A DNA stretch of 25,745 bases. Source: a virus. The notes under the pieces are model-generated. The model was not told the DNA's origin. It searched no databases and saw only the letters and a program-made list of their open reading frames with translations. The position numbers and the translations under genes were made by a program. The stretch is taken from positions 1 through 25,745 of IMG/VR virus record IMGVR_UViG_3300009152_000184. The stretch is one strand, 5' to 3'. Shown one piece after another: positions 9,005 to 25,264 of this stretch (position 1 is the stretch's first letter; the number at the start of each line of letters is the position of its first letter).

Positions 9005-9418
9005 ATGGGCAGACCAACAAAACTCACTCCCGAAAAACACGACAAGATCGTTGAACTTGTTCGCGCAGGCAACTATGTGGATACAGCATCCGCTGTTGCA
9101 GGTGTGGCTGAACAAACCTTTTATGTGTGGATGTCTAAGGGCGAAGGTGAGAAGGCTCGTAGCCCTTACAAGGAGTTTCGTGAGGCGATAACGGCTGCAA
9201 GGGCAGAAGCGGAAGCCCGAATGGTTTTGGTCGTTCAGAGAGCCGCTAATGACGGCTCATGGCAGGCTGCATCGTGGTATTTGGAGCGTACTAAGCAAGC
9301 GAAGTTTGGTAAACAGAATCGTGTTGAGTTAACGGGTGCTGAGGGTGGCGCGGTGAAGGTAGATGTTTCCGTGGACGAGTTGGAGCAACGAATTGCCAAC
9401 CTCCTTGATAAAGCCTGA
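9005..9418 (+). CDS. terS: Terminase small subunit
   Basis: 137 residues from ATG 9005. The N-terminus MGRPTKLTPEKHDKIVELVR, followed by AGNYVDTASAVAGVAEQTFY and VWMSKGEGE, is the homeodomain-like HTH typical of small terminases. A helical oligomerisation segment follows (EAITAARAEAEARMVLVVQR) and then WQAASWYLERTKQAKFGKQN. It recognises phage DNA ends and hands them to the large subunit. An in-frame GTG at 8927 would add 26 residues, but that extension crosses the low-complexity tract and lacks a ribosome site. The ATG also lacks a strong one. Directly precedes and overlaps the large subunit. Confidence 0.85.
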   Translation: MGRPTKLTPEKHDKIVELVRAGNYVDTASAVAGVAEQTFYVWMSKGEGEKARSPYKEFREAITAARAEAEARMVLVVQRAANDGSWQAASWYLERTKQAKFGKQNRVELTGAEGGAVKVDVSVDELEQRIANLLDKA

Positions 9419-11294
9419 CGGTAAAAGTTCTAAAGACTTAATCTTCTTCTTTCGCAATGCGAAGGTGGCGGACAGAAAGATTTGGTTGGCAGGCTTAACC
9501 GCGTCTGAGCGTCAGACTGTGATGTCTCTTATTGAGTTGATCGCCGATAATCCGTGGTCGCAATACATGACCGATCCCGCAGGTTTCATTGAGCAAGGTT
9601 TAGGTGAAACGATTTGGTCTAAGCAACGCGAAATACTTGAATCGGTACGCGACAACAAAAGAACAGCGGTACCTGCATGTCACGCACCAGGGAAATCACA
9701 TTTGGCTGCACGAATTGTTGCTTGGTGGGCGATGTGCCAACCTGTCGGAACATCACAAATAGTCACTACAGCAACATCGTTTCGTCAAGTACGCAACATC
9801 CTGTGGTCACACATCAGAAAACTGCATGCGACCCACAACCTCGGCGGAGAGTGCCTTACTGTGGAATGGAAAATGGATAAGAGCGTTGTCGCGTTCGGTT
9901 TCGCCCCTGCACAGTACAACGAAACAGCGTTACAGGGAATCCACGCACCTAACCTGCTCGTAGTAGTAGATGAAGCGGGCGGTATTAGCGACACAATTGG
10001 CAATGCGTTAGAAGCGTTGATGACGGGAGGCAATACACGATTATTGTTGCTAGGAAACCCGCCCACAGATCAAGAAAATAGTTGGTTTGAACGCGCATGC
10101 AACAGCGATTTATACAACACAATCCCAATATCGGCGTATGACACGCCTAATTACACAGGTGAAGAGGTAGGAAACTGCACTACATGCCCGAAATCAGTGC
10201 CTACACACTCAGTAGCAACACACTTAGTAGATCAAACTTGGGTAAATGATGTCATTAGTGAGTTAGGTGAGAACAGTTCGTTCGTAACAGCCCGCGTGAG
10301 AGCAGAGTTTCCTAAAGGCGCAGGTAACAGAGTGATTCCTTCTACTTGGATAGAAGAAGCAAGCAACAACCTGAACCCTGCACACGACACACGCATACGC
10401 TTAGGCATAGACATCGCAGCAGACGGCGGTGACGAGTTCGTAATCGCAAGAGCAGACGGATACACAGTAAGAATCGTGCATGCAAGTAGCGGTGCAGACA
10501 ACGCGAACGCTGTACAGGTAGCAAACATCTGTCTGAGGTATATTCAGGAAGCCGAAGCCGATGCCCTGCAACAAGCAAATGCACACATGCACACACATTC
10601 AGACGAAACCCTTACAGCACAAGGGAATCCTGAATTGCCAGTGGAAGAGTCAACTTTACATAAGAGGTATTATGGGCGAACCCAAAGCGAACACCTGTTC
10701 GCCCCGCAAACCCTTACACCACAAGGGTTTCCCGCCACACAACACTTATCCACACCCCCGCAAACCCTTACACAACAAGGGTTTCAGAGCATCAACAGAG
10801 GGGTGGGGGGTCGGATCAACGAAAATCAGACGGGGGCTACTGCTCACACTGTCTCTGTGAAGGTTGATGCTATTGGTTTGGGTTGGGGTGTAGTGGGGTT
10901 GTTGGAGGCGTGGGGTCGTGAGGGGTTGCATGGTGCGAGGGTTGTTGGGGTGAATGTGGCGGAGCGGGCTTTTGATTCGGGGAAGTTTAAGAATCAGCGG
11001 GCGGAGATGTGGTGGAATGGTCGGGTGTTGGTTCAGCCTGATGTGGATGGTTTTCAGGTGGTTCGGTTGGATGTGGATCGGAAGGTGTTGGGTCAGTTGG
11101 GTTCTCCTGATTTTGTGTCGGATTCTTCGGGTCGTATTCAGGTGGTTGGTAAGGGTGAGTTGAGGAAGAAGGGTGCTGGTTCTCCTGATCGTGCTGAGGC
11201 GGTGTTGTTGGCGTTGTATGAGCCGAAGGGTTGGTTGATGCCTGAGTTGGTTTCGCCTGTTGCTTTGACGCAACGGAATCAGTGGCGCATGTAG
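9363..11294 (+). CDS. terL: Terminase large subunit with an insertion in the nuclease domain
   Basis: 643 residues. ATPase domain: atypical Walker A CHAPGKS (106-112), Walker B LLVVVDE (198-204), coupling motif LLLLGNPP (227-234). RNase H-like nuclease: D350 in RLGIDIAADGGDEF, D502 in KVDAIGLGWGV, and the C-terminal DRAEAVLLALYE. It translocates DNA into proheads and cuts it. Residues about 400-495 are a low-complexity Gln/Thr/His segment absent from the expected flow of the domain (LRYIQEAEAD directly to VKVDAIGLGWGV) and carry the DNA repeats at 10606-10784. From about base 10800 codon choice flips from A/C-rich to strongly G/T-rich. The listed ATG overlaps terS by 56 nt; TTG 9405 is a more compact alternative start. 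Confidence 0.9.
   Translation: MFPWTSWSNELPTSLIKPDGKSSKDLIFFFRNAKVADRKIWLAGLTASERQTVMSLIELIADNPWSQYMTDPAGFIEQGLGETIWSKQREILESVRDNKRTAVPACHAPGKSHLAARIVAWWAMCQPVGTSQIVTTATSFRQVRNILWSHIRKLHATHNLGGECLTVEWKMDKSVVAFGFAPAQYNETALQGIHAPNLLVVVDEAGGISDTIGNALEALMTGGNTRLLLLGNPPTDQENSWFERACNSDLYNTIPISAYDTPNYTGEEVGNCTTCPKSVPTHSVATHLVDQTWVNDVISELGENSSFVTARVRAEFPKGAGNRVIPSTWIEEASNNLNPAHDTRIRLGIDIAADGGDEFVIARADGYTVRIVHASSGADNANAVQVANICLRYIQEAEADALQQANAHMHTHSDETLTAQGNPELPVEESTLHKRYYGRTQSEHLFAPQTLTPQGFPATQHLSTPPQTLTQQGFQSINRGVGGRINENQTGATAHTVSVKVDAIGLGWGVVGLLEAWGREGLHGARVVGVNVAERAFDSGKFKNQRAEMWWNGRVLVQPDVDGFQVVRLDVDRKVLGQLGSPDFVSDSSGRIQVVGKGELRKKGAGSPDRAEAVLLALYEPKGWLMPELVSPVALTQRNQWRM
10606..10784 (+). repeat. 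Three palindromic repeats inside terL
   Basis: AAACCCTT-7 nt-AAGGGTTT occurs at 10708-10730 and 10762-10784, and a decayed copy (right arm AAGGGAAT) at 10606-10628. The spacers are ACACCAC, ACACAAC and ACAGCAC. Arms of 8 bp around a 7-bp spacer give strong hairpins. Each is read in frame as [E/PQ]TLTxQG[F/N], so the coding frame survives. Confidence 0.85.
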
Positions 11295-11391: not shown

Positions 11392-11886
11392 ATGGAAAAT
11401 CTTGATGTGGTGCGCGTAAAATCTTTGATGCGTAAAGAGGTTTATGGTTCTGTTGTTGACGCTTTAAAAGTGTTGTTGGCGGATACGGATTCGGTGTATC
11501 ACGAGGCTCACATGTTTCATTGGAATGTAAAGGGTCAAGATTTCGCTCAATATCATGCTTTGTTTGAGGCGATTTATACGGATTTGCGGGAATCTATTGA
11601 TCCGATTGCGGAAAACATTTTGAAGATGGGTTCGGATGCGCCGTTTACTTTGTTGGATGTGATTTCTTTGCGCCGTGTGTCGGATGCTCGTCCTGCTTCT
11701 ACCCCGCAGGAGATGGGTGTGTCGTTGTTGGGGTTGTTGATTGATTTGTTGGTGTGTTTGAACAACGCTTTTAAGGTTGCTTCTGACGCAAATCAGCAGG
11801 GTGTAGCCAATTTTGTTGCGGAGCGTATTGACGCTACACAAAAGTGGATTTGGCAGTTGAAAGTTTCTACAGGAATCCAAAAGTAG
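11392..11886 (+). CDS. Dps-like ferritin
   Basis: 164 residues with the Dps ferroxidase set at the classical spacing: His43, His55 (+12), Asp70 (+15), Glu74 (+4), in HEAHMFHWNVKGQDFAQYH and ESIDPIAENIL. The family forms 12-mers that oxidise and store iron and shield DNA from oxidative damage; some members bind DNA. Length is typical except for an N-terminal extension with VVRVKSLMRK (6-15), shared with the next two genes. The gene sits between terminase and portal, far from any metabolic genes, suggesting the protein may enter the capsid or act during packaging. No clear ribosome site precedes ATG 11392. TAGGTT (11380-11385) could be a leaderless -10 box. Confidence 0.8.
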   Translation: MENLDVVRVKSLMRKEVYGSVVDALKVLLADTDSVYHEAHMFHWNVKGQDFAQYHALFEAIYTDLRESIDPIAENILKMGSDAPFTLLDVISLRRVSDARPASTPQEMGVSLLGLLIDLLVCLNNAFKVASDANQQGVANFVAERIDATQKWIWQLKVSTGIQK

Positions 11887-11894
11887 GTTTCAGC

Positions 11895-12776
11895 GTGGAC
11901 AGTTTAGAGTTGCGGGCTGGTCGTGAGATTGTTCGGATAAAAACTTTGATGCGTTTGCGTAAAGATTCACCGACTGTTTCGGCGGTTCATGTGGATTCTG
12001 TTATGGGGTCTAAAGGAAAGAAAAAGAAAAAGAAAAAGAAACAAGAAGAACTTGAATACATTGAAATTGACAAGTCTTTGACTCAATGGTTTCAAGAAAA
12101 ATGGGTTGATTTGTCGCGACCTAAAGAGGGTGGCGGGTTTGAACCGTGTGGACGGTCGGATGCTAAGAGTGGTAAATATCCGAAGTGTGTTCCTGCGTCT
12201 AAAGCGTCACGGATGACAGCGGAGGAAATCAGTTCGGCGGTTCAAAGGAAGCGTAAGGCTGAGTCAACTCAAACAAGGGTAGATAAGAAGCCGATCAATG
12301 TTTCTACGAAGGTGAAGAAGGCTTCCAAGAATGTTCCTACGAACCCTGAACTGTATGCGCGGGTGAAAGCGGAAGCAAAACAAAAGTTTGATGTTTACCC
12401 TTCGGCTTACGCGAACGCTTGGCTCGTCCGCGAATATAAGAGTCGTGGCGGGAAGTACAAGGTGACGAAAGCGGACTCTCCTGCATGGCAACGAGAAGCA
12501 GGAAAGAACCCGAAAGGTGGTTTGAACGCGAAGGGTCGCGCTTCGTATAAGCGTGAAACTGGCGGGACACTGAAACCTCCTGTGAAAGCGGGGGATAATC
12601 CTCGGAGGGCTTCATTTCTTGCGCGTATGGGCAACATGGCTGGTCCTGAGCGTGATGAGAATGGTGAGCCGACACGGTTGTTGTTGAGTTTGCAGGCTTG
12701 GGGCGCAAAGTCTAAAGCCGATGCCCGTAAGAAGGCGAAAGCAATCTCTGCACGGAATAACAGCGAAACAAAGTAA
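11895..12776 (+). CDS. Basic DUF5872-type protein
   Basis: 293 residues from GTG 11895, 8 nt after the Dps stop. The in-frame GTG at 11844 would overlap Dps by 43 nt and is less likely. The N-terminal REIVRIKTLMR is the motif shared with Dps and the next gene. A lysine run (bases about 12012-12045) follows, then the DUF5872 signature KWVDLSRPKEGGGFEPCGR and YPKCVPASKASRMT. Next come NPELYARVKAEAKQKFDVYP with AYANAWLVREYKSRGG, and a C-terminal NPRRASFLARMGNMAGPERD with LLLSLQAWGAKSKADARKKA. The protein is very basic and probably binds nucleic acid. DUF5872 function is unknown. Position and charge fit a DNA-condensing or virion-internal protein. Confidence 0.7.
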   Translation: MDSLELRAGREIVRIKTLMRLRKDSPTVSAVHVDSVMGSKGKKKKKKKKQEELEYIEIDKSLTQWFQEKWVDLSRPKEGGGFEPCGRSDAKSGKYPKCVPASKASRMTAEEISSAVQRKRKAESTQTRVDKKPINVSTKVKKASKNVPTNPELYARVKAEAKQKFDVYPSAYANAWLVREYKSRGGKYKVTKADSPAWQREAGKNPKGGLNAKGRASYKRETGGTLKPPVKAGDNPRRASFLARMGNMAGPERDENGEPTRLLLSLQAWGAKSKADARKKAKAISARNNSETK

Positions 12777-12778
12777 TC

Positions 12779-14020
12779 ATGTTTGATGTCAGGGCTGTTG
12801 TTCGGATAAAGACCGAGATGCGTAAGGTTTCGTTCGGCGGTGACAGGTCGGAGGCTGGTCGGTTTGCGGCGAATCAGCGTTGGAAGGATCATGTGAAAGT
12901 CGTTGACACAACCGTTGGAATTGGGTACACTGATGGTATGACAAGTGGGATGACAGATCAGGAACGACAATTGCACGAACTGGCAGTCAAAACTGACACC
13001 GAGATTGCCCGCCTTCTAGGAATCCATGCAGGGTTGCGCGGAAAGCAAGACCGAATCTTGGACAACATTCTTCGCAATTACAAATATGTCTTGCGTCCGA
13101 AAGAAGAAAACGAAAGCGCTTGGGCGTACAGAGATTATGTTGAACGCGCAATGTTTGAGCAAAAAAGGGCTTTGTCGTTTGGCTTGCGGAATCCTGAAAC
13201 CAACGCGGAGACTGTCGCGAAACTGATTGCAAACTTTCAAGACCAACCCGTAAGAGCAAACGGGACAATCCCGAATGTTGAGTATTTCATTGAGGACATG
13301 AAAGAAGGCTTGGTCAAACTTGGTGAAGTTGGTCAAGAGATAAACGCAAACAATGCACTGTTAAATCCGTTGAACAAAACTTTTGCCGAAAACGGATGGT
13401 CGCGTTTCTTCCTTGTGACAAACACAAACGGTCACATTCACTCTTCAAGAGATTGCTCTACATGCAACGACACAACACAGTTTGCGTGGATTACAACTTT
13501 GAGCGGGTTAAAAGAAAAAGATGCTGTTGAACAAGAGGGAGAAATCCTTTGCACAGTTTGCTATCCGACAGCGCCTTCGGAGTACACATCGGGTGAAAGC
13601 AAGCCGAAGCGGATCGCGCGTGAGGCTCGTGAAGCGGAAAAGAAGATTCGTGATGAAAAGAAACTTGCTAAACTGCTCACACCAACGGGCGAGGATTTGG
13701 TTGTTCGCGGGGACACTTACGAGATGCAGGATCGCCGAACAGGTTTGATGGTTCCACAAACAAAGCAGGAGCGCCTGACCACAGTGTTTGGTGGCAAAGA
13801 GTTTTTGAAGGACTACCACGATTTCGTAAATGCTGCAAAAAAGCAAACTGATCCTGCTCGCAAGGCATGGTTGACAGATGGAACGGATGGTTTGCACACA
13901 AAGGCGAACGCTGATTTGGTTGCCGAGTTGGTGGCGCAGAAAACAGGTAAAACGGTTGCTGAGGTTATGGCTAATGCGAAGAGGTTGGCTGACAAAAGCC
14001 CTACTTACGCAAATTATTAG
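12779..14020 (+). CDS. Tagged protein with phage zinc-binding motif (413 aa)
   Basis: Residues 7-15 carry VVRIKTEMR and 16-35 the shared tag KVSFGGDRSEAGRFAANQRW. A long helical region follows from about residue 58 (MTDQERQLHELAVKTDTEIA). Then comes a cysteine/histidine module, HIHSSRDCSTCNDTTQFAWI (219-238) with LCTVCYPTAP (257-266): His219, His221, Cys226, Cys229, Cys258 and Cys261. I recognise this module from many actinophage hypothetical proteins; it looks like a zinc-bound treble-clef or ribbon. The C-terminal 130 residues are charged helix. Untagged relatives, as I recall them, begin near the MTDQERQ segment. There is a candidate promoter at 12903-12931 just before it. No ribosome site precedes ATG 12779. 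Confidence 0.7.
   Translation: MFDVRAVVRIKTEMRKVSFGGDRSEAGRFAANQRWKDHVKVVDTTVGIGYTDGMTSGMTDQERQLHELAVKTDTEIARLLGIHAGLRGKQDRILDNILRNYKYVLRPKEENESAWAYRDYVERAMFEQKRALSFGLRNPETNAETVAKLIANFQDQPVRANGTIPNVEYFIEDMKEGLVKLGEVGQEINANNALLNPLNKTFAENGWSRFFLVTNTNGHIHSSRDCSTCNDTTQFAWITTLSGLKEKDAVEQEGEILCTVCYPTAPSEYTSGESKPKRIAREAREAEKKIRDEKKLAKLLTPTGEDLVVRGDTYEMQDRRTGLMVPQTKQERLTTVFGGKEFLKDYHDFVNAAKKQTDPARKAWLTDGTDGLHTKANADLVAELVAQKTGKTVAEVMANAKRLADKSPTYANY
12824..12883 (+). other. Shared tag, copy 1 (in 413-aa protein)
   Basis: Encodes KVSFGGDRSEAGRFAANQRW, residues 16-35. The peptide matches the copy in the GNAT protein at all 20 positions although the codons differ at many third positions. Confidence 0.9.
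12903..12931 (+). promoter_or_regulatory. Candidate intragenic leaderless promoter in the 413-aa gene
   Basis: TTGACA (12903-12908), 17-nt spacer, TACACT (12926-12931). Seven nt later is an in-frame ATG (12938, residue 54). The order -35, 17 nt, -10, 3 nt, GGTATGACAA is the same as at the promoter at 14025-14053. Confidence 0.45.
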
Positions 14021-17980: not shown

Positions 17981-17992
17981 AGAATGGCGACA
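17980..17992 (+). promoter_or_regulatory. Leaderless promoter -10 box for the portal gene
   Basis: TAGAAT (17980-17985, 5 of 6 consensus) ends 7 nt before ATG 17993, and no ribosome site is present. No good -35 is visible. If real, it excludes ATG 17984 as the start on this transcript. Confidence 0.45.
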
Positions 17993-19423
17993 ATGGCACC
18001 TCAACCCGACTTTCAAGAAATTGGTTCGTCAGGACTTCAACGAACTTCAGGGTTCGTCATTGATGACTTCATTGCCAATCTCCGTGGCGTTCAGGGCGCT
18101 CGCGTTTGGCGCGAAATGTCCGACAATGATGCTGTTGTGGGCGCAATGCTGTTCGCTATTGAGCGACTGATTCTCGGTATTGACTGGAAAGTGGAGCCGT
18201 ACACCAAAAGCGACAAAGACAACATCAAAAAAGCGGATCAAAAGAACGCAGATTTTGTTCAAGAGTGCATGGATGACATGTCGGAAACTTGGTCGGCAAT
18301 GCTGTCACAAGTTCTTTCTTTCCTCGTGTTCGGATTTGCATACACCGAGATTGTGTATAAGAAACGCAAAACAAGCGACACGAAAGACCCTACGCGCCGT
18401 TCAAAGTTTTCGGACGGGAAGATTGGTTGGCGTAAAATTGCTTTGCGTTCACAGGAAACTTTGTGGGATTGGCAGTTTGACGAAAATGGTTCTATCACGG
18501 GCATGCGTCAATCCGATCCTTCGGTTCCTAAAGGTGTTGTCTTTATTCCGATTGAGAAATCGTTGCTGTTTCGCACGGTAACTGCGCGTAACAACCCTGA
18601 AGGTCGCTCAATTTTGCGTAACGCTTACCGCCCGTGGTTCTTCAAAAAGACGATTGAGGAAATTGAGGCTGTCGGTATTGAGCGTGACTTGGCAGGTTTG
18701 CCTGTCGCCTATGTGCCACCATCAATGCTTTCCTCCAACGCCACTACAGCCGAAGTGTCGGCTCGTAACGCTATGCAGGACTTGATCCGTGGCATTAAGC
18801 GAAACGAAAACGAAGGCATCTTGTTCCCGCTTGCTTATGACGAACAGGGTCGCGAACTGTACAAGTTGACTTTGCTTTCATCGGGTGGTACCCGCAACTT
18901 CAACACTGACGCGATCATTGCCCGTTACGATCAGCGGATCGCCATGGTGGTTTTGGCAGACTTCATTCTGTTAGGACATGAGAAGGTCGGCTCGTTCGCG
19001 TTGGGCGCTTCAAAGATTGACTTGTTTACTTCAGCGATTCAGCAGATCGCCGATTCCATTGCAGATGTGTTTAATACTCATGCGATTCCTCGCCTGTTCA
19101 AATTGAACGGTATGGACGCGACAACTTGCCCGAAGATTAAAGCAGGCGAAATCACTCATGTTGACTTGGGTGTCCTCGGCGACTTCATCTCCAAGATGTC
19201 TGCGGCAGGTGCGATGGCTCCTGACATTGACATGGACAACTATCTACGCGGTTTGGCTAACTTGCCGAAACGAAGCGAAGAGGCGGGCGTTCCACCGATG
19301 GGTATGGGGCAGATGCCTCCCACTGGCGCACCTGCACCTGCGGGCGCTCCTGCACCTGAACAACCTGCTCCTGCGCCGAACCTCTTTGAGTCAATCGGCG
19401 GCAAAACTAATGCGAAACCGTAA
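17993..19423 (+). CDS. Portal protein (Mu gp29 / DUF935-like)
   Basis: 476 residues from ATG 17993 (479 from ATG 17984). VWREMSDNDAVVGAMLFAIE, LILGIDWKVEPYTK and FLVFGFAYTEIVYKK follow the N-terminal wing of DUF935-type portals. WDWQFDENGSITGMRQ, PIEKSLLFRTVTARNNPEGR and SILRNAYRPWFFKK form the characteristic stem/clip region. The portal ring is the DNA channel at the head vertex and docks the terminase. The C-terminus is a Pro/Ala-rich tail (GAPAPAGAPAPEQPAPAP). It is followed 2 nt later by the head morphogenesis gene, as in Mu-like head modules. Confidence 0.85.
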   Translation: MAPQPDFQEIGSSGLQRTSGFVIDDFIANLRGVQGARVWREMSDNDAVVGAMLFAIERLILGIDWKVEPYTKSDKDNIKKADQKNADFVQECMDDMSETWSAMLSQVLSFLVFGFAYTEIVYKKRKTSDTKDPTRRSKFSDGKIGWRKIALRSQETLWDWQFDENGSITGMRQSDPSVPKGVVFIPIEKSLLFRTVTARNNPEGRSILRNAYRPWFFKKTIEEIEAVGIERDLAGLPVAYVPPSMLSSNATTAEVSARNAMQDLIRGIKRNENEGILFPLAYDEQGRELYKLTLLSSGGTRNFNTDAIIARYDQRIAMVVLADFILLGHEKVGSFALGASKIDLFTSAIQQIADSIADVFNTHAIPRLFKLNGMDATTCPKIKAGEITHVDLGVLGDFISKMSAAGAMAPDIDMDNYLRGLANLPKRSEEAGVPPMGMGQMPPTGAPAPAGAPAPEQPAPAPNLFESIGGKTNAKP

Positions 19424-19425
19424 TC

Positions 19426-20469
19426 ATGCCGTTTGTTACGCGCACGAGTTCGCCGAAGCATGTTCATTCGGGCGCTTCTAACCACGATATTGAACTTGAG
19501 GATTTAGAAAAAGCAAGCGGTGAGATCACTGATCCTGCGTTACTGGCGGACATTACCGCTTTGCAAGATTTGTATCAAAGCGCAATCACAGGTATGTCGG
19601 CAGCGGTCACGCGGGCGCAACAGTTATTGGCACAACAGAACCGAACTGGAACACTGGACTTGCGACTGTTTCAAGAAGTCTTTGCCACACAAGCGGTGGA
19701 GGCGCTACGGCAGTCTTTAAGAGATGTGAGCGATGGAACTGCGGAACAGGTGCTTTTGGAGGCTAGGAGAGCCATACAGAGGCTTCCTGCGGGCATTTAC
19801 GGCAAGATGTCCTTTGATGCTAAAGACCCTCGTGCTATCGCATGGGCTGAGGAACGAGCAGGGACAATGATTGCTCAGATTCAGGCTGAGGCGTTGACGG
19901 CTGTTCGCGGGATCATTTCGCGGGTGTTGTCTAGCGGTGGCGGTGTGCCTCGCGCTGCGAAAGAGATTCAGCGGGTGGTTGGTTTGCATGATCGTTGGCA
20001 ACGAGCGGTGGATAACTATTACAACAAAGAGGTGGGAAGGTTGAGTCGCACCATGAGTGTTGATTCGGCGATTCAGAAAGCGGAAGAAGCATCGTTGAAG
20101 TATCGGGATCAGTTGATTAGGGCGCGTTCGTTGAACATTGCTCGTACAGAGATTTTGGCTTCACAGAACATTGGGACTTTGTTGGGCTGGTATCAGGCTT
20201 CGGATCAAGGGTTTTTGGATTTAACTGACGCGAGGAAAGAGTGGGTTGTCGGTCCTGATGGTTGGAAGGGTGTTGAGGTTTGCGCGATTTGTATGGATTT
20301 GGCTGGTCAGCAGGTTCCTGTAACGGCGGTGTTTTCTAATGGTGAGATTTGTCCTCCAGCGCATCCGTCTTGCCGTTGTTCTATGTCGTTGTTGACTTTG
20401 GTTTCGTTTGAGGAGCAACAGGCTTCTCGTATTGCGGATGAAGCGTTGTTGAATGATGCTGGTTTCTGA
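19426..20469 (+). CDS. Head morphogenesis protein (Mu F / SPP1 gp7-like)
   Basis: 347 residues. The middle is long helices (AVTRAQQLLAQQNRTGTLDL and others). Near the C-terminus is the signature of the Mu F-like domain: VCAICMDLAGQQVPV followed by CPPAHPSCRCSMSLL, a Cys/His cluster typical of minor head proteins. Together with RSLNIARTEILASQNIGT ('ARTE' motif) it identifies the family, which assists capsid assembly and is a few copies per virion. It starts 2 nt after the portal stop, without a clear ribosome site. Its stop overlaps the next ATG. Codon use becomes strongly G/T-rich toward its end. Confidence 0.85.
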   Translation: MPFVTRTSSPKHVHSGASNHDIELEDLEKASGEITDPALLADITALQDLYQSAITGMSAAVTRAQQLLAQQNRTGTLDLRLFQEVFATQAVEALRQSLRDVSDGTAEQVLLEARRAIQRLPAGIYGKMSFDAKDPRAIAWAEERAGTMIAQIQAEALTAVRGIISRVLSSGGGVPRAAKEIQRVVGLHDRWQRAVDNYYNKEVGRLSRTMSVDSAIQKAEEASLKYRDQLIRARSLNIARTEILASQNIGTLLGWYQASDQGFLDLTDARKEWVVGPDGWKGVEVCAICMDLAGQQVPVTAVFSNGEICPPAHPSCRCSMSLLTLVSFEEQQASRIADEALLNDAGF

Positions 20470-21917
20470 TGATTGTTGATGCGAAGTGGGAAGCAACGAT
20501 TCGTAAGTCTGTTCGCGATCAAGTAGCGAAGTTCAATCCTTACCATGACGAGTTGGGAAGGTTCACCACAGGCGGTGTGTCATCCGCGGTAGCAGACTCA
20601 ATCATCGCCCGTGTCAAAGCAAACGGCGGGCTGTCAGTTAAGATTCTGACTGGCGAAGAACCAACTGACGGCTTTATGGTGGCTCAACAAGGTCAAAACT
20701 TAGAAGTCAAAGAAGAAGATTTCTTTGATGCGAAGAAGGGTAAAGCCGCGTTAAGCGCCTATTTGAAAGCAAAAAAATTGGTGTTCGGCAAAGATCAGTA
20801 TTTAGGACTTTGGTGGAACAAAGATAAAAAAGAAATCAGTTTGGATGTAGTTGATAGGATCAAAACTCGTAGTAAGGCGACCAAGGCTGGTCGGGAAAGA
20901 AACCAACAGGCTATTTGGGATGTCAAAAATCAGGAAGAAATCAACACAGGAGGAACAGGTGACAGAACAACCGAACCAACCCTTGCATCTAGCAAAACCT
21001 CCAAAGCCTTTGGCGGAGATGACAGATCAGGAGATAGAGGAGTTCGCATCCCAAGTTTGGGAAAGATTCGTACAGGAAAACAACGGGTAGTTCAGCAAAC
21101 TATTCGCGCAAAAGTTTTCAAAGTTTCGTTTGGTGGTGATCGGAGCGAAGCAGGTAGATACGCGGCAAACATGCGATGGCAGGGTCGTTCAGAGGCTATA
21201 AGTCCTAGAGCAAAAGACATTTCAAAAGAGTTAGGGCTTTTTTTTGGTAAAGACCCTAATGAATACTTGAAGTCGGAAGGTTACAAAGAAATACAGAAAA
21301 GAGAAGGTGAAAATCAAACCGACTATTTTTCTGACACTAGATTAGAAATAATTGCGGACAAACAAGGTTTTTCGGGTTTACCAAAGGTGGTTTCATCTGA
21401 GGAAATGACACGATTAGAAAAAGAAGGTTGGACTATTGCTTATCGGGGGATTAGCACCATATTTATTGCTACCCCAAACAGACAAACGACCTTGAACGCC
21501 GAAGATTTAGCGGAGGAGTTTAGAACAGGCAAGTATTTTGGGGGTCATGGGGTTCACGGCAACGGAACATATTTTGCGACAGACAAAGAAGTGGCTCAAA
21601 CTTTTGCCGAAAATGAGAGCGAAACAAACGGAACGGTAATCAAAGTGGCGATTCCGCCCAATGTGTTGATGGAACGAAACGAATTAAAAAATGAGGTAAT
21701 AAAACATCAGGATAGTTTCAAAAAACCTTCAAGAGCGTTTTTTGGTGACGATGACATAGGAAGAGTGTTAGCCGCTAAAGGAGTGAGGGGGGCAAGAATG
21801 AACTTGAGACTTTCGGGGTCATTTGTTGCCGATGTTGGGGCAGCGATTGAATCTAATGTAATTTTAATTTTTGATAGGTCTATGCTTGCTGTTGAAGAAA
21901 GCAAAAAAACAAAATGA
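20469..21917 (+). CDS. Composite protein: HDE-GRF domain + shared tag + ADP-ribosyltransferase
   Basis: 482 residues in three parts. Residues 1-165: KFNPYHDELGRFTTGG (21-36), then DGFMVAQQGQNLEV, and AGRERNQQAIWDVKNQEEIN with TGGTG; I know this as a complete small phage protein. Residues 218-237: shared tag KVSFGGDRSEAGRYAANMRW. C-terminal ADP-ribosyltransferase: WTIAYRGIST (Arg326), then GGHGVHGNGTYFATDKEVAQ, a pattern of phage head-associated ARTs. These enzymes move ADP-ribose from NAD+ onto host proteins. Residues 164-207 are oddly Ser/Thr/Gly/Arg-rich and overlap a plausible gene in another frame (20959-21090). This suggests two genes joined across an old junction. Coupled to the neighbours by overlaps. 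Confidence 0.7.
   Translation: MIVDAKWEATIRKSVRDQVAKFNPYHDELGRFTTGGVSSAVADSIIARVKANGGLSVKILTGEEPTDGFMVAQQGQNLEVKEEDFFDAKKGKAALSAYLKAKKLVFGKDQYLGLWWNKDKKEISLDVVDRIKTRSKATKAGRERNQQAIWDVKNQEEINTGGTGDRTTEPTLASSKTSKAFGGDDRSGDRGVRIPSLGKIRTGKQRVVQQTIRAKVFKVSFGGDRSEAGRYAANMRWQGRSEAISPRAKDISKELGLFFGKDPNEYLKSEGYKEIQKREGENQTDYFSDTRLEIIADKQGFSGLPKVVSSEEMTRLEKEGWTIAYRGISTIFIATPNRQTTLNAEDLAEEFRTGKYFGGHGVHGNGTYFATDKEVAQTFAENESETNGTVIKVAIPPNVLMERNELKNEVIKHQDSFKKPSRAFFGDDDIGRVLAAKGVRGARMNLRLSGSFVADVGAAIESNVILIFDRSMLAVEESKKTK
20959..21090 (+). CDS. Overlapping small acidic protein (43 aa) in another frame
   Basis: GTG 20959 has a perfect ribosome site (AGGAGG, 20948-20953) 5 nt upstream. The product reads naturally (LHLAKPPKPLAEMTDQEIEE, then FASQVWERFV), whereas the long frame through the same DNA is low in hydrophobic residues. 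It probably was, or is, a free-standing gene that follows the HDE-GRF domain. The 132-nt overlap with the composite ART frame is nearly complete. Confidence 0.5.
   Translation: MTEQPNQPLHLAKPPKPLAEMTDQEIEEFASQVWERFVQENNG
21120..21179 (+). other. Shared tag, copy 2 (in first ART)
   Basis: Encodes KVSFGGDRSEAGRYAANMRW at residues 218-237, directly after the joined region and about 90 residues ahead of the ART catalytic core. Confidence 0.9.
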
Positions 21918-23107
21918 CACCTACTCAGTCACGGCAATTAGCATCTCTTGTACAAACTTTTTCACCAAAACAAAAGGCTGATTTCTATTATTTCACGATG
22001 GTTTTAGACCAAGACCCGTTGGCTTATCTCTCTGACGATGTTCAAATGTTGAAAGTTTCTTTTGGTGGGGACAGATCAGAAGCAGGCAGATATGCCGCAA
22101 ATCAAAGATGGCAGGGTCAAAAAAAGTTGGAAACGAGTGTTGGTTTTACTGGCACCGATTTGGATTCAGACGGAGAAAAGTATTCAGAAGATGCTTCAAG
22201 TTCTGAACTTAACAAAATGTTTCAATCGGACATTTTTTTTGCCTTAGAGCAATCCTCTGAGTCTGAACCAGCGCAATTGTTAAAAAAAATTGCTGTTAAA
22301 GGAATTATTGATGGTATGACGGATGTTTCTGAAGAAGATGTTTCGGAGGCTTGTTTAGCGTTATTTGGTACCGCAAGCAATCTCCCAAATCATCTCGCTG
22401 TAATTGTGGATAAACAAAGATTTGTTCAACATTTTGTGGATCAATGGGCTGGTTCTTCAAACGATAGTCAACGAGACAGTCTTTTAGTTCAACGAGCAGT
22501 TGAAAAAGTTTTTGGGTTAGTTGGTGTTTTGGAAACACAAGAAATGGAATCCGAAGATAGTTTTGCCGCGGAAGAACCCGATTTAGAAGCAAAAGAATTA
22601 TTAAAAAATCCCGCTGTAGAAAAAGTTTTAACTAGTTTTCTTAGAGCGCAATATGCCAACACTCAATCATATTTCAAGAGTAAAGGAATTAAAACAGTAG
22701 AGGTTTTGCGAGGCGCGGCAATGTTATCCGTAAGGGAACAATTAAATAGTTACAATCAAGATCATCAAAGAAGCAAAACTTTAGATAATGATGTTCCAAA
22801 TGAAGGAAATATGGAGGTTTGGTCGCCGCTTCGTCCACTTTCATCTTGGTCAATTAGCGGTAGTGTCGCCGATGATTTTGCGGGTGTGCAATCTCATTAC
22901 ATTCAACCCGAAGGTGTAGTTTTTAGAACACGGGTTCCAGTTTCAAGGGTTTTTGCGACACCTTTTACGGGAATTGGCTGCGCTAATGAATATGAAATGG
23001 TTTTGTTGGGCGGAAGAATAGACGCTAAGGCGGGGACTTCTTCGGGTGCAACCGAAAGCGCTGTCAACTATACGGCTTTGTATGGCGAAAAGGATCAATA
23101 CTCGTGA
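21914..23107 (+). CDS. Tagged R-S-E ADP-ribosyltransferase
   Basis: 397 residues. The shared tag is at 47-66 (KVSFGGDRSEAGRYAANQRW). The C-terminal ART domain shows all three conserved elements: QSYFKSKGIKTVEVLRG (Arg266), the STS-like SSWSISGSVADDF (310-322) and the E-x-E motif NEYEMVLLGG (Glu359, Glu361). E-x-E with R and S marks the arginine-modifying (CT-like H-Y-E excluded) R-S-E group. The central part (about 80-235) is acidic. The enzyme would use NAD+ to modify host proteins, as T4 Alt and ModA do with RNA polymerase. It overlaps the first ART by 4 nt and the GNAT gene by 4 nt. It is visibly richer in A+T than the head genes, suggesting later acquisition. Confidence 0.75.
   Translation: MTPTQSRQLASLVQTFSPKQKADFYYFTMVLDQDPLAYLSDDVQMLKVSFGGDRSEAGRYAANQRWQGQKKLETSVGFTGTDLDSDGEKYSEDASSSELNKMFQSDIFFALEQSSESEPAQLLKKIAVKGIIDGMTDVSEEDVSEACLALFGTASNLPNHLAVIVDKQRFVQHFVDQWAGSSNDSQRDSLLVQRAVEKVFGLVGVLETQEMESEDSFAAEEPDLEAKELLKNPAVEKVLTSFLRAQYANTQSYFKSKGIKTVEVLRGAAMLSVREQLNSYNQDHQRSKTLDNDVPNEGNMEVWSPLRPLSSWSISGSVADDFAGVQSHYIQPEGVVFRTRVPVSRVFATPFTGIGCANEYEMVLLGGRIDAKAGTSSGATESAVNYTALYGEKDQYS
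22052..22111 (+). other. Shared tag, copy 3 (in second ART)
   Basis: Encodes KVSFGGDRSEAGRYAANQRW at residues 47-66, with A/T-rich codons unlike those of copy 1. Confidence 0.9.
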
Positions 23108-24162
23108 GACAAAGAATTGTTATGGATAACTCACTTCGCAATAGCGATTGGGTTAAGGCATCTAGTTTTGATTTTCCTTCGGTTAAGAATCTTGCCGATT
23201 TTGAACGGGCAATGTTGATTCCTTCTGAGCCCCTTGCTCGGCGCACGAAGTTGGCTTCGTATGCGGGGATGGCTTGGTTTCCTGTTGCTCCTGACGATAT
23301 TCGCCATGCGATTATAGAGGCTGCGCGTCAACAGGATTTGGTAAAAATGTTGAAATCTAAAGGTTTGTCTGCGCTTGAGAAGTCCAAGTTGAAAGATGAT
23401 GTGTTTATGTTGTTGGTTGCCGAAAAACTTTCTAAGGTTTCGTTTGGTGGTGACAGATCGGAAGCAGGTCGGTTCGCCGCTAATCAACGCTGGAAAAACC
23501 ATCAGAAAAAAGAAGATGACAAAAAGGGTCAAAGCAATAAAAGCCCTGTTGCTCAATCCATTCTTGAAGCCAACGAATCGCTCAAAAAAGCGGGTTTGAC
23601 TGTTCGTGTGATGGAGATAACAAAAAGAGATACAGAATTATCACAAAGATTAACAAACTCAATTGAAAAATCAGCCACAATAATACGCAAAAGCAAAAAC
23701 TTTGCCCCCTTTACCCAAGAGAGATGGTTTTCTGAGGCGGTCAACTTAATGAAGAGTAGCGTCTATTTTGAGGACACAGAATACAACTACCGTAATCCTG
23801 ATCCCGTTGGTCAGTTCATTATTTTGGTTGAAAAAGGCAAAGCCATAGTTGGTGCTATGAGATTTGCTCCTGATTCTTTCCTTGAAGGATTCAAACATTT
23901 ACAAGAAGGAGAAATACCTTCTGCTGGCTCATTGAGGGTTGTTAAGGGTGTTGGTACCGCAATGTTTGGTGAGGCACTAAAAATAGCGGCACGAACAGGA
24001 ACGGGAAAAATAAAAATAGAAGCACTAAACACCGCAGAATCATTTTGGAAATCTCAGGGTTTTAAGCGAGTCAAAAATGCTAAACTTAAAGAAAACTCTA
24101 CTTACGACATGATAATAGACGCAGATACCGTGCAAACACTTGTTAAGGAGATTTCATCGTGA
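23104..24162 (+). CDS. Tagged GNAT acetyltransferase
   Basis: 352 residues. The start is GTG 23104, coupled to the ART stop (GTGA) with AAAAGGA upstream; ATG 23122 is an alternative. Residues 1-110 are an unrecognised N-terminal region. The shared tag lies at 111-130. The C-terminal domain fits the GNAT fold: IILVEKGKAIVGAMRFAP (strands), SLRVVKGVGTAMFGEALKIA (275-295, acetyl-CoA binding), and NTAESFWKSQGFKRVKN near the end. GNATs acetylate amines on proteins or small molecules using acetyl-CoA; the substrate is unknown. Phage GNATs sometimes modify host proteins. It ends in a coupled start for a 31-aa peptide. Confidence 0.7.
   Translation: MRQRIVMDNSLRNSDWVKASSFDFPSVKNLADFERAMLIPSEPLARRTKLASYAGMAWFPVAPDDIRHAIIEAARQQDLVKMLKSKGLSALEKSKLKDDVFMLLVAEKLSKVSFGGDRSEAGRFAANQRWKNHQKKEDDKKGQSNKSPVAQSILEANESLKKAGLTVRVMEITKRDTELSQRLTNSIEKSATIIRKSKNFAPFTQERWFSEAVNLMKSSVYFEDTEYNYRNPDPVGQFIILVEKGKAIVGAMRFAPDSFLEGFKHLQEGEIPSAGSLRVVKGVGTAMFGEALKIAARTGTGKIKIEALNTAESFWKSQGFKRVKNAKLKENSTYDMIIDADTVQTLVKEISS
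23434..23493 (+). other. Shared tag, copy 4 (in GNAT protein)
   Basis: Encodes KVSFGGDRSEAGRFAANQRW at residues 111-130, in the middle of the protein rather than at its N-terminus. Confidence 0.9.
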
Positions 24163-24301: not shown

Positions 24302-25264
24302 GTGCAAACAACAGCCTCAAAAGTACGATTGGATGTTTTGAAAAGGCTTAATACTGTACAAAAGTTTAATCCAAACCATGACGAATTGGGTAGATTCTCA
24401 ACTGGTTCAAGCGCTTCATCAAGGTATGTAGAAGGTTTCGGTCACATTCAGCGTTCCGCAAGCGGAGAATGGACGGACTCTCAGGGAGTCTCTCTTGCTC
24501 CTCGCGTCACCATGGCGATTAGGATGCGCGACCAACTTGCTTTGCGCGACAAAGCCATTGCCGAAGGAACTGCGCCTGAACCACCATCACCGTTCAAAGT
24601 TCAAGAGGTTGTTGACCGTACTGCTAAAGGTTTGAAGTCGGAGATTCCTGCACCATTGTTAAAAACGGTTTTAGACAACATGGCTGATCGGACAGATGAT
24701 CCAAACATTGCAAATATCAGGCTTGATGTGCCATGGGTAAAGTTGGGTCGTGAAAGTCTTGGCTTAACAAGGGATCAAGCACCGCAAGTACCAACGAACC
24801 TAAAACAAAAGTTTTTGTCTGACATGGAGACTCGTGGAGTAAAGATTTACCGTGAGGAACTTTCCGCGTCACCATTGACACCAACCCAAACACAGATTTC
24901 GGGTCGCGCTGCGGGGCAGATTATGCGCCGTATGGAAGCAGGAAAAGATCGTTTTGCAGACAATTTTGATGCTGGAGCGGTAATTGTTTCTGCTGACAAC
25001 TATGTGATTGATGGTCATCATAGGTGGGCTGGTCAGGTTGCTTCTGAGATGGCTGGTTCTACCTCGCGCATGAGGGCTTTGCGTGTTGGTTTGAACGCTA
25101 AAGAATTGATTGGTGTTATTAGGGCTTGGGATGTGGCAAACAATGTTGAAACTTTGGCTATGGGTGAGGATCGTGGTTATTCGCCTGCAACAAAGATGGC
25201 GATGTTGTACAAGGCGATTGATGTAGCAGTTTTTGATGCGAAAGATAAGGTTTGGTGTGCCTGA
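24302..25264 (+). CDS. ParB-like protein with N-terminal HDE-GRF motif
   Basis: 320 residues from GTG 24302. The N-terminus has KVRLDVLKRLNTVQ then KFNPNHDELGRFSTG, the same motif as in the first ART. The C-terminal half carries the ParB/Srx-like signature VIVSADNYVIDGHHRWAGQV, a form of the 'DGHHRWxA' nucleotide-binding motif often seen in phage head-module proteins. A nuclease or NTP-binding role is plausible but unproven. Upstream, GHIQRSASGEWTDSQG recalls small phage structural repeats. The stop lies just inside the next reading frame. It sits between effector-like genes and the prohead protease. Confidence 0.7.
   Translation: MQTTASKVRLDVLKRLNTVQKFNPNHDELGRFSTGSSASSRYVEGFGHIQRSASGEWTDSQGVSLAPRVTMAIRMRDQLALRDKAIAEGTAPEPPSPFKVQEVVDRTAKGLKSEIPAPLLKTVLDNMADRTDDPNIANIRLDVPWVKLGRESLGLTRDQAPQVPTNLKQKFLSDMETRGVKIYREELSASPLTPTQTQISGRAAGQIMRRMEAGKDRFADNFDAGAVIVSADNYVIDGHHRWAGQVASEMAGSTSRMRALRVGLNAKELIGVIRAWDVANNVETLAMGEDRGYSPATKMAMLYKAIDVAVFDAKDKVWCA

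Follow-up and report, generated by a model that had tools for sequence, protein, structure and literature searches.

Background

In bacteriophage T4, a capsid targeting sequence of ten residues is found in the propeptides of IPI, IPII and IPIII, and the ADP-ribosyltransferase Alt is packaged as well (PMC9026906). For DarB of phage P1, a large injected protein, the first 30 residues are enough to bring a reporter to the capsid (PMC9024508). In MuF polymorphic toxins and phage polyvalent proteins, effector domains are joined to head-block proteins, and these products were proposed to be packaged and injected (PMC5512222, PMC5576092). Here we describe a short N-terminal peptide, the leader, which is shared by three consecutive genes of the virus record IMGVR_UViG_3300009152_000184. 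The genes encode a Dps-type ferritin, a lysine-rich protein with DUF5872 and DUF6321 domains, and a protein with a cysteine-rich (zinc) motif and a conserved tag. The whole record of 25,745 bases was analysed and is called the window; all coordinates refer to its + strand. Our favoured reading, which we consider an even call, is that the peptide may act as a genome-specific loading leader, getting head-block cargo proteins into the virus particle.

As in T4, a short N-terminal peptide is common to unrelated or divergent proteins of one phage, a pattern that is repeated in three further loci (L008, L107 and L263). Tagged Alt-like ADP-ribosyltransferases also occur in the phages studied here, which recalls the packaging of Alt by T4. 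The leader differs from the T4 sequence in its residues, in the second conserved tag that often stands behind it and in that each lineage has its own version, and no membership in the T4 type is claimed. With DarB (PMC9024508) it has in common that the packaging information would be N-terminal; DarB is a single protein, whereas the same leader stands here on three unrelated neighbours. MuF toxins and polyvalent proteins are joined by whole domains, and the passages considered from these papers describe neither a short shared leader nor the two tags found here, GDRS and HDE. The window Dps has the ferritin fold of cellular Dps and its best matches in the PDB are Dps entries, but its first 11 residues, comprising most of the leader, lie outside all PDB alignments among the matches listed.

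A leader shared by three neighbouring genes

A near-identical element at the start of three consecutive genes had been claimed by the original prediction, and all three copies were found exactly at the positions given there. The first, VVRVKSLMR (11407-11433), comprises residues 6-14 of Dps (11392-11886; Pfam Ferritin, E 1.2e-13; PHROG 3636, DNA binding protein) and lies within an extension of residues 1-15. The second, IVRIKTLMR (11928-11954), comprises residues 12-20 of the DUF5872/DUF6321 protein (11895-12776; DUF6321, 1.8e-24; DUF5872, 2.1e-16), whose start was taken as the GTG at 11895; the longest open reading frame (ORF) begins with a GTG at 11844. The third, VVRIKTEMR (12797-12823), comprises residues 7-15 of the zinc-motif protein (12779-14020; PHROG 15500, 3.9e-34; PHROG 2433, 9e-29) and runs, as predicted, straight into the GDRS tag KVSFGGDRSEAGRFAANQRW (12824-12883). 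That the remainder of the proteins is unrelated was likewise borne out by their families, which are Ferritin for the first and DUF5872 with DUF6321 for the second; the third has no Pfam family above the cut-off.

When 9-mers from the first 40 residues of each protein were combined into triples without gaps, this same motif came out best, with a BLOSUM62 sum of 97. Residue shuffles gave a mean of 33.8 and a maximum of 68, and none of the 5000 shuffles reached 97. The leader triple also ranks first among the 5984 triples of 34 window genes, which were picked by eye from the ORF list, and is followed by triples due to the HDE tag. A degenerate DNA pattern for the leader peptide matches exactly three times in the window and not at all in 100 dinucleotide shuffles.

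The leader is not a family feature of its carriers. Matches of the window Dps in the PDB are Dps proteins (E down to 1.1e-15), and among the 60 listed of 67 matched sequences the earliest alignment begins at residue 12, most beginning at residues 19-41; judged by these matches, the segment is not standard in Dps. The Pfam match together with the Dps matches in the PDB identifies the window protein as having a Dps-type ferritin domain. Residues H43, H55, D70 and E74, which we take to be the His, His, Asp and Glu of the Dps ferroxidase centre, are invariant in six phage sequences. An AlphaFold model of Dps has a confident ferritin core, and the leader extension (residues 1-15) has a predicted local distance difference test (pLDDT) value below 50.

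Nor is the segment standard in DUF5872 proteins, since none of 46 ORFs with the DUF5872 motif from 80 other viral loci, most of them short and stand-alone, carried it at up to three mismatches. In the window protein, both families score well above their curated Pfam cut-offs (61 bits vs 27.5 for DUF5872 and 86.6 vs 28.5 for DUF6321), and the DUF5872 match starts only at residue 146 of the protein submitted from 11901. The cysteine-rich family is present in 312 actinophage records; none of the 40 listed matches starts before residue 159, and leader and tag are therefore seen as additions to this family. No cellular relative was confirmed when the genome collection was scanned, once with the tag alignment and once with Dps, and so PDB chains and Pfam are the basis for comparison with cells.

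Distribution in relatives

Conservation among close phage relatives was also found. Of 64 loci with a related large terminase (TerL) and a usable downstream region, nine carry the window leader type after TerL, two carry the EIKI type described below and 14 any tag or leader type; five more loci lacked the end of TerL or had too little sequence. In all nine loci with the window type, the C-terminal part of TerL is at least 72% identical. The degenerate DNA pattern for [VI]VR-x-K[ST]-x-MR occurs in 16 places in 14 IMG/VR stretches. In eight of these places, spread over six contigs, the match is the N-terminal leader of a gene that follows a related TerL; eight further contigs have one match each, in an unrelated context. 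Because two of the six contigs carry an identical gene start, the independent leader lineages number fewer than six.

The cargo behind the leader is exchangeable. Locus L008 is a close relative of the window (91% in the tagged protein) and retains the leader on the DUF5872 protein with the same residues and on the tagged protein as VVRIKTDMR. In the Dps slot, L008 has a different ORF of 192 residues, which starts with MKSVDVVRLKTLMRLR, carries the leader VVRLKTLMR and continues into the HDE tag KFNPNHDEIGRF; ahead of this start, L008 and the window have near-identical DNA. The tagged protein of L009 has the leader VVDIKTSMR. In L001 the leader sits not on Dps but on a fusion of tag and DUF5872, and in L260 leader and tag open a protein of 786 residues. 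The leader is not always joined to the GDRS tag, as the window Dps and DUF5872 proteins carry it without one. In L262 and L263 it stands at the N-terminus and the tag follows from about residue 71, with some 50 residues between them. From its occurrence on different proteins in L008, L001 and L260 and its distance from the tag in L262 and L263, it follows that the leader is a unit of its own which need not touch the tag.

Other lineages have leaders of their own. Behind TerL, L107 encodes MPLPRKAEIKIEMRKASFGGDRSEAGR on a tagged protein and MGLPREIEIKIEMRKAGLTQWFNEKW on an untagged DUF5872-like protein, with EIKIEMRKA identical on both. In L263, MNNREIVRMRTALAKAEFSSRSEAGR (tagged) and MNNREIVRMRVAVAKESPTSSAVHVD (DUF5872, untagged) have MNNREIVRMR in common. 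EIKIEMRK was matched 12 times when searched for, in 10 stretches; seven of these matches, on five contigs, are leaders linked to a tag or to DUF5872; the remaining five belong to two unrelated protein families. Among 149 leaders before GDRS tags on 53 contigs, the mean similarity score was -0.58 within a contig vs -6.56 between contigs, and 2000 label permutations reached at most -3.31. Pairs scoring at least 15 made up 43 of 252 within contigs and 347 of 10,774 between them. The likeness within contigs is partly internal duplication, since the comparison includes several tags of one polyprotein.

Tags and the link to the head

The GDRS tag, SFGGDRSxAGRYAAxxRW, recurs widely as a module of phage effectors and head proteases. 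A search of IMG/VR with the tag alignment gave 72 loci, and 151 distinct instances were counted over all sequences gathered; among the 121 non-redundant tag ORFs, 23 have several copies. For the tally of carriers, 106 of the 121 ORFs were scanned against Pfam and PHROGs, where one protein may match several families. The 15 left out were six ORFs of more than 1100 residues, one of 938 residues, those of L008, L117 and L156 and five short fragments; three of the long ones (L103, L106 and L133) were scanned separately. Pfam assigned ADP-ribosyltransferase exoenzyme (8), zeta toxin (8), XkdF serine protease (8), GNAT (6), DUF5872 (5), DUF6321 (3), DRAT (3) and others. The PHROGs comprised RNA ligase (8), DNA methyltransferase (8), head maturation protease (8), minor head protein (7) and Alt-like RNA polymerase ADP-ribosyltransferase (6).

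The two untagged carriers of the window are each joined to a head protease elsewhere. In L103, L115, L120, L131 and L148, a single ORF combines XkdF, DUF5872 and/or DUF6321, zeta toxin and tags. For Dps, a natural fusion is found in L002 (4296-5432), where one ORF comprises the XkdF protease (1.1e-16), DUF6496 and the Dps ferritin (1.4e-17).

The second tag, HDE (KFNPxHDExGRFxTA), is repeated in head-block proteins and was counted in 96 non-redundant ORFs over all sequences gathered. It presumably comes after MuF-like ends (HPQCRC) and an apparent portal C-terminus. Tags can be C-terminal too, as the DUF5872 protein of L008 (4365-5534) ends in the HDE-like tag KFNQNHDEFGQF. The ORF of L106 (156-4403; 1416 residues) contains three GDRS tags and has weak metallopeptidase-like matches (ATLF, M43 and M90), all under the Pfam cut-offs.

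Interpretation

The leader is probably an address label, because three unrelated neighbours share it and relatives place it on proteins linked to head building. On the reading we favour, the nine-residue element would form the core of a leader of about 15 residues, short, basic and particular to the genome, at the N-terminus of head-block cargo. The leader may bind one shared partner in the growing procapsid, such as the scaffold, the head protease or the portal/MuF complex. The Dps, the lysine-rich DUF5872 and the tagged zinc-motif proteins would then be taken in before the DNA is packaged and accompany the genome, and Dps might protect or condense the incoming DNA.

Several observations weigh against this reading. 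The closest relative of the window Dps, that of L001 (78%), starts with MSVMRKEYG and lacks nine residues of the leader, its gene being 27 nucleotides shorter, in frame, directly past the ATG; in five further Dps loci (L002-L006) the N-termini are different again. Actinophages have the zinc-motif family without the leader, for example in mid-genome genes of mycobacteriophages, and the isolates Kovu, Salgado, Ottawa and ValentiniPuff, which have related portals, show neither leader nor tags in the regions read. The T4 prohead protease site L/I-x-E is present in none of ten leaders. Over 148 leaders, the helical moment was not above that of composition-preserving shuffles (10.8% at p<0.1), and an AlphaFold model of leader plus tag predicts a two-helix form with low confidence (pLDDT 65).

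The original prediction had described a basic amphipathic peptide that looks like an encapsulation signal. Basic it is, as each of the three window copies has a charge of +2 to +4 over 14 residues, but the helical moment test did not support an amphipathic helix. A strand-like periodicity fits slightly better for a few leader copies, with p values of 0.02-0.08 that are uncorrected for several tests. As to encapsulation, the claim is partly supported, and neither of the two sequence-based outcomes that were to refute it came about. It gains from a leader that is non-standard in the carrier families, conserved in relatives and found on proteins elsewhere fused to XkdF; it loses by the leaderless Dps of L001, by an amphipathicity no better than in shuffles and by the missing L/I-x-E site. 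Position, size and sharing resemble T4 and DarB, but the T4 protease site is missing and helix and model are weak, and therefore a loading leader is the best reading, at the even strength given above.

The most serious alternative, which we nevertheless regard as unlikely, is that recombination copied gene starts and left the leader as a relic, with cargo swapped by a crossover at the 5' end and the residues themselves being functionless. Copying did take place, since the two L107 genes share their ribosome-binding region (22 of 30 nucleotides upstream) and the two L263 genes are identical in 29 of 30 bases from the ATG; in window and L008, the DNA is common up to the start and then leads into different cargo. 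However, EIKIEMRKA was kept unchanged in L107 although five of nine codons differ, all synonymously, and in L263 the common DNA begins at the ATG, with unrelated DNA upstream (9 of 30). The three window copies are identical in 18-22 of 27 bases within the motif and in 7-12 of 30 in each flank; recent DNA duplication as the sole cause was thus rejected for the window, while it is real in L107 and L263. For nine window-type copies, the ratio of nonsynonymous to synonymous differences (pN/pS) is 0.24 (pS 0.47, pN 0.11), and for the three window copies 0.37, values that are an indication and not a test because pairs of copies are not independent. They indicate selection on the leader peptide rather than on the DNA, which speaks against functionless residues.

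Next in standing, and likewise improbable in our view, is a docking peptide which unites its carriers, or brings them to terminase or portal during packaging or replication, without enclosure in the head. In the lineage of the window, the carriers of this leader version are among the first genes after TerL, and a shared binding partner would explain why leaders match within a genome. Yet the EIKIEMRK leader of L328 is also placed after portal and MuF, and the tagged partners, among them head maturation proteases and minor head proteins, as well as the fusions of Dps and DUF5872 to XkdF protease, speak against this alternative.

That the phage head protease cuts off the leader as a propeptide, so that targeting and removal are combined as in the internal proteins of T4, we consider quite doubtful. 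XkdF-type proteases and multi-tag polyproteins among the tag carriers would be natural substrates, but the first 31-40 residues contain no L/I-x-E in nine of the ten leader proteins read. The tenth, the first gene of L263, has LFE at residue 35, outside the leader, and S/A-x-E is only sporadic; T4-type and phiKZ-type cleavage motifs are not consistently present in the leaders. Very improbable, and already disfavoured, is that the stretch serves as a promoter, a ribosome-binding site or a recombination site at the level of DNA or RNA and is translated by chance, for although it lies at gene starts and the copied unit of L107 includes the ribosome-binding region, the codon-level changes are mostly synonymous and the window copies agree in only 18-22 of 27 bases, with unrelated flanks.

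Returning to the loading leader, we tentatively suggest a wider form of it, which is possible rather than probable. Each lineage would have a private address code, in which the leader is matched to its own head receptor and spreads by copying between gene starts; a new 5' end could then turn any acquired enzyme or nucleoid protein into virion cargo. In uncultured aquatic phages, leader and the two tags would thus serve as interchangeable modules that load a whole set of injected proteins.

Should the leader be a loading signal, the sequence itself would tell the virion cargo of uncultured phages, for which proteomics is impossible. Dps would then be a DNA-protecting protein carried in the phage head, and short natural peptides would be available for trying programmable loading of phage heads. 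Even otherwise, many unrelated effectors and head proteases of these phages share small N-terminal modules. N-terminal capsid targeting peptides are a known kind, but we found no description of a lineage-specific leader on Dps, DUF5872 and tagged proteins together with a second, exchangeable tag. In open-licence PMC papers, GDRSAAGRYAA and further tag strings had no match, and neither did terms for packaging signal combined with effector; tag peptides of 32 and 31 residues had no match in 50,697 phage records.

Genomic context

On the + strand, the order of genes is TerL, Dps, DUF5872/DUF6321 protein, tagged cysteine-rich protein, small genes, portal and MuF-like protein. TerL (9363-11294; PHROG 2, terminase large subunit, 2.6e-26) lies immediately upstream of the leader genes. 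The portal protein (17984-19423; Pfam Portal_Mu, 2.5e-30) is followed by a MuF-like head morphogenesis or head maturation protease protein (19426-20469; PHROG 16493, 2.9e-29; Phage_Mu_F, 5.6e-5, under the Pfam cut-off).

Past the MuF-like gene come three proteins with a GDRS tag, one of them with an HDE tag as well, and then a fourth with an HDE tag only. The first (20469-21917) has its GDRS tag at 21126-21179 and a weak, not significant ADP-ribosyltransferase-like match (ART-PolyVal, E 0.15); the HDE tag KFNPYHDELGRF lies at 20529-20564. In the second (21914-23107) the GDRS tag is at 22058-22111, and in the third, a GNAT-like protein (23104-24162; Acetyltransf_10, E 0.0028, under the Pfam cut-off), at 23440-23493. 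The fourth (24302-25264) carries the HDE tag KFNPNHDELGRF near its start (24362-24397). No major capsid gene was recognised up to the end of the window.

Inside the TerL reading frame, a near-palindrome, AACCCTTACANNACAAGGG, is present in three copies at 10607-10781; L008 has one copy and L324 has three.

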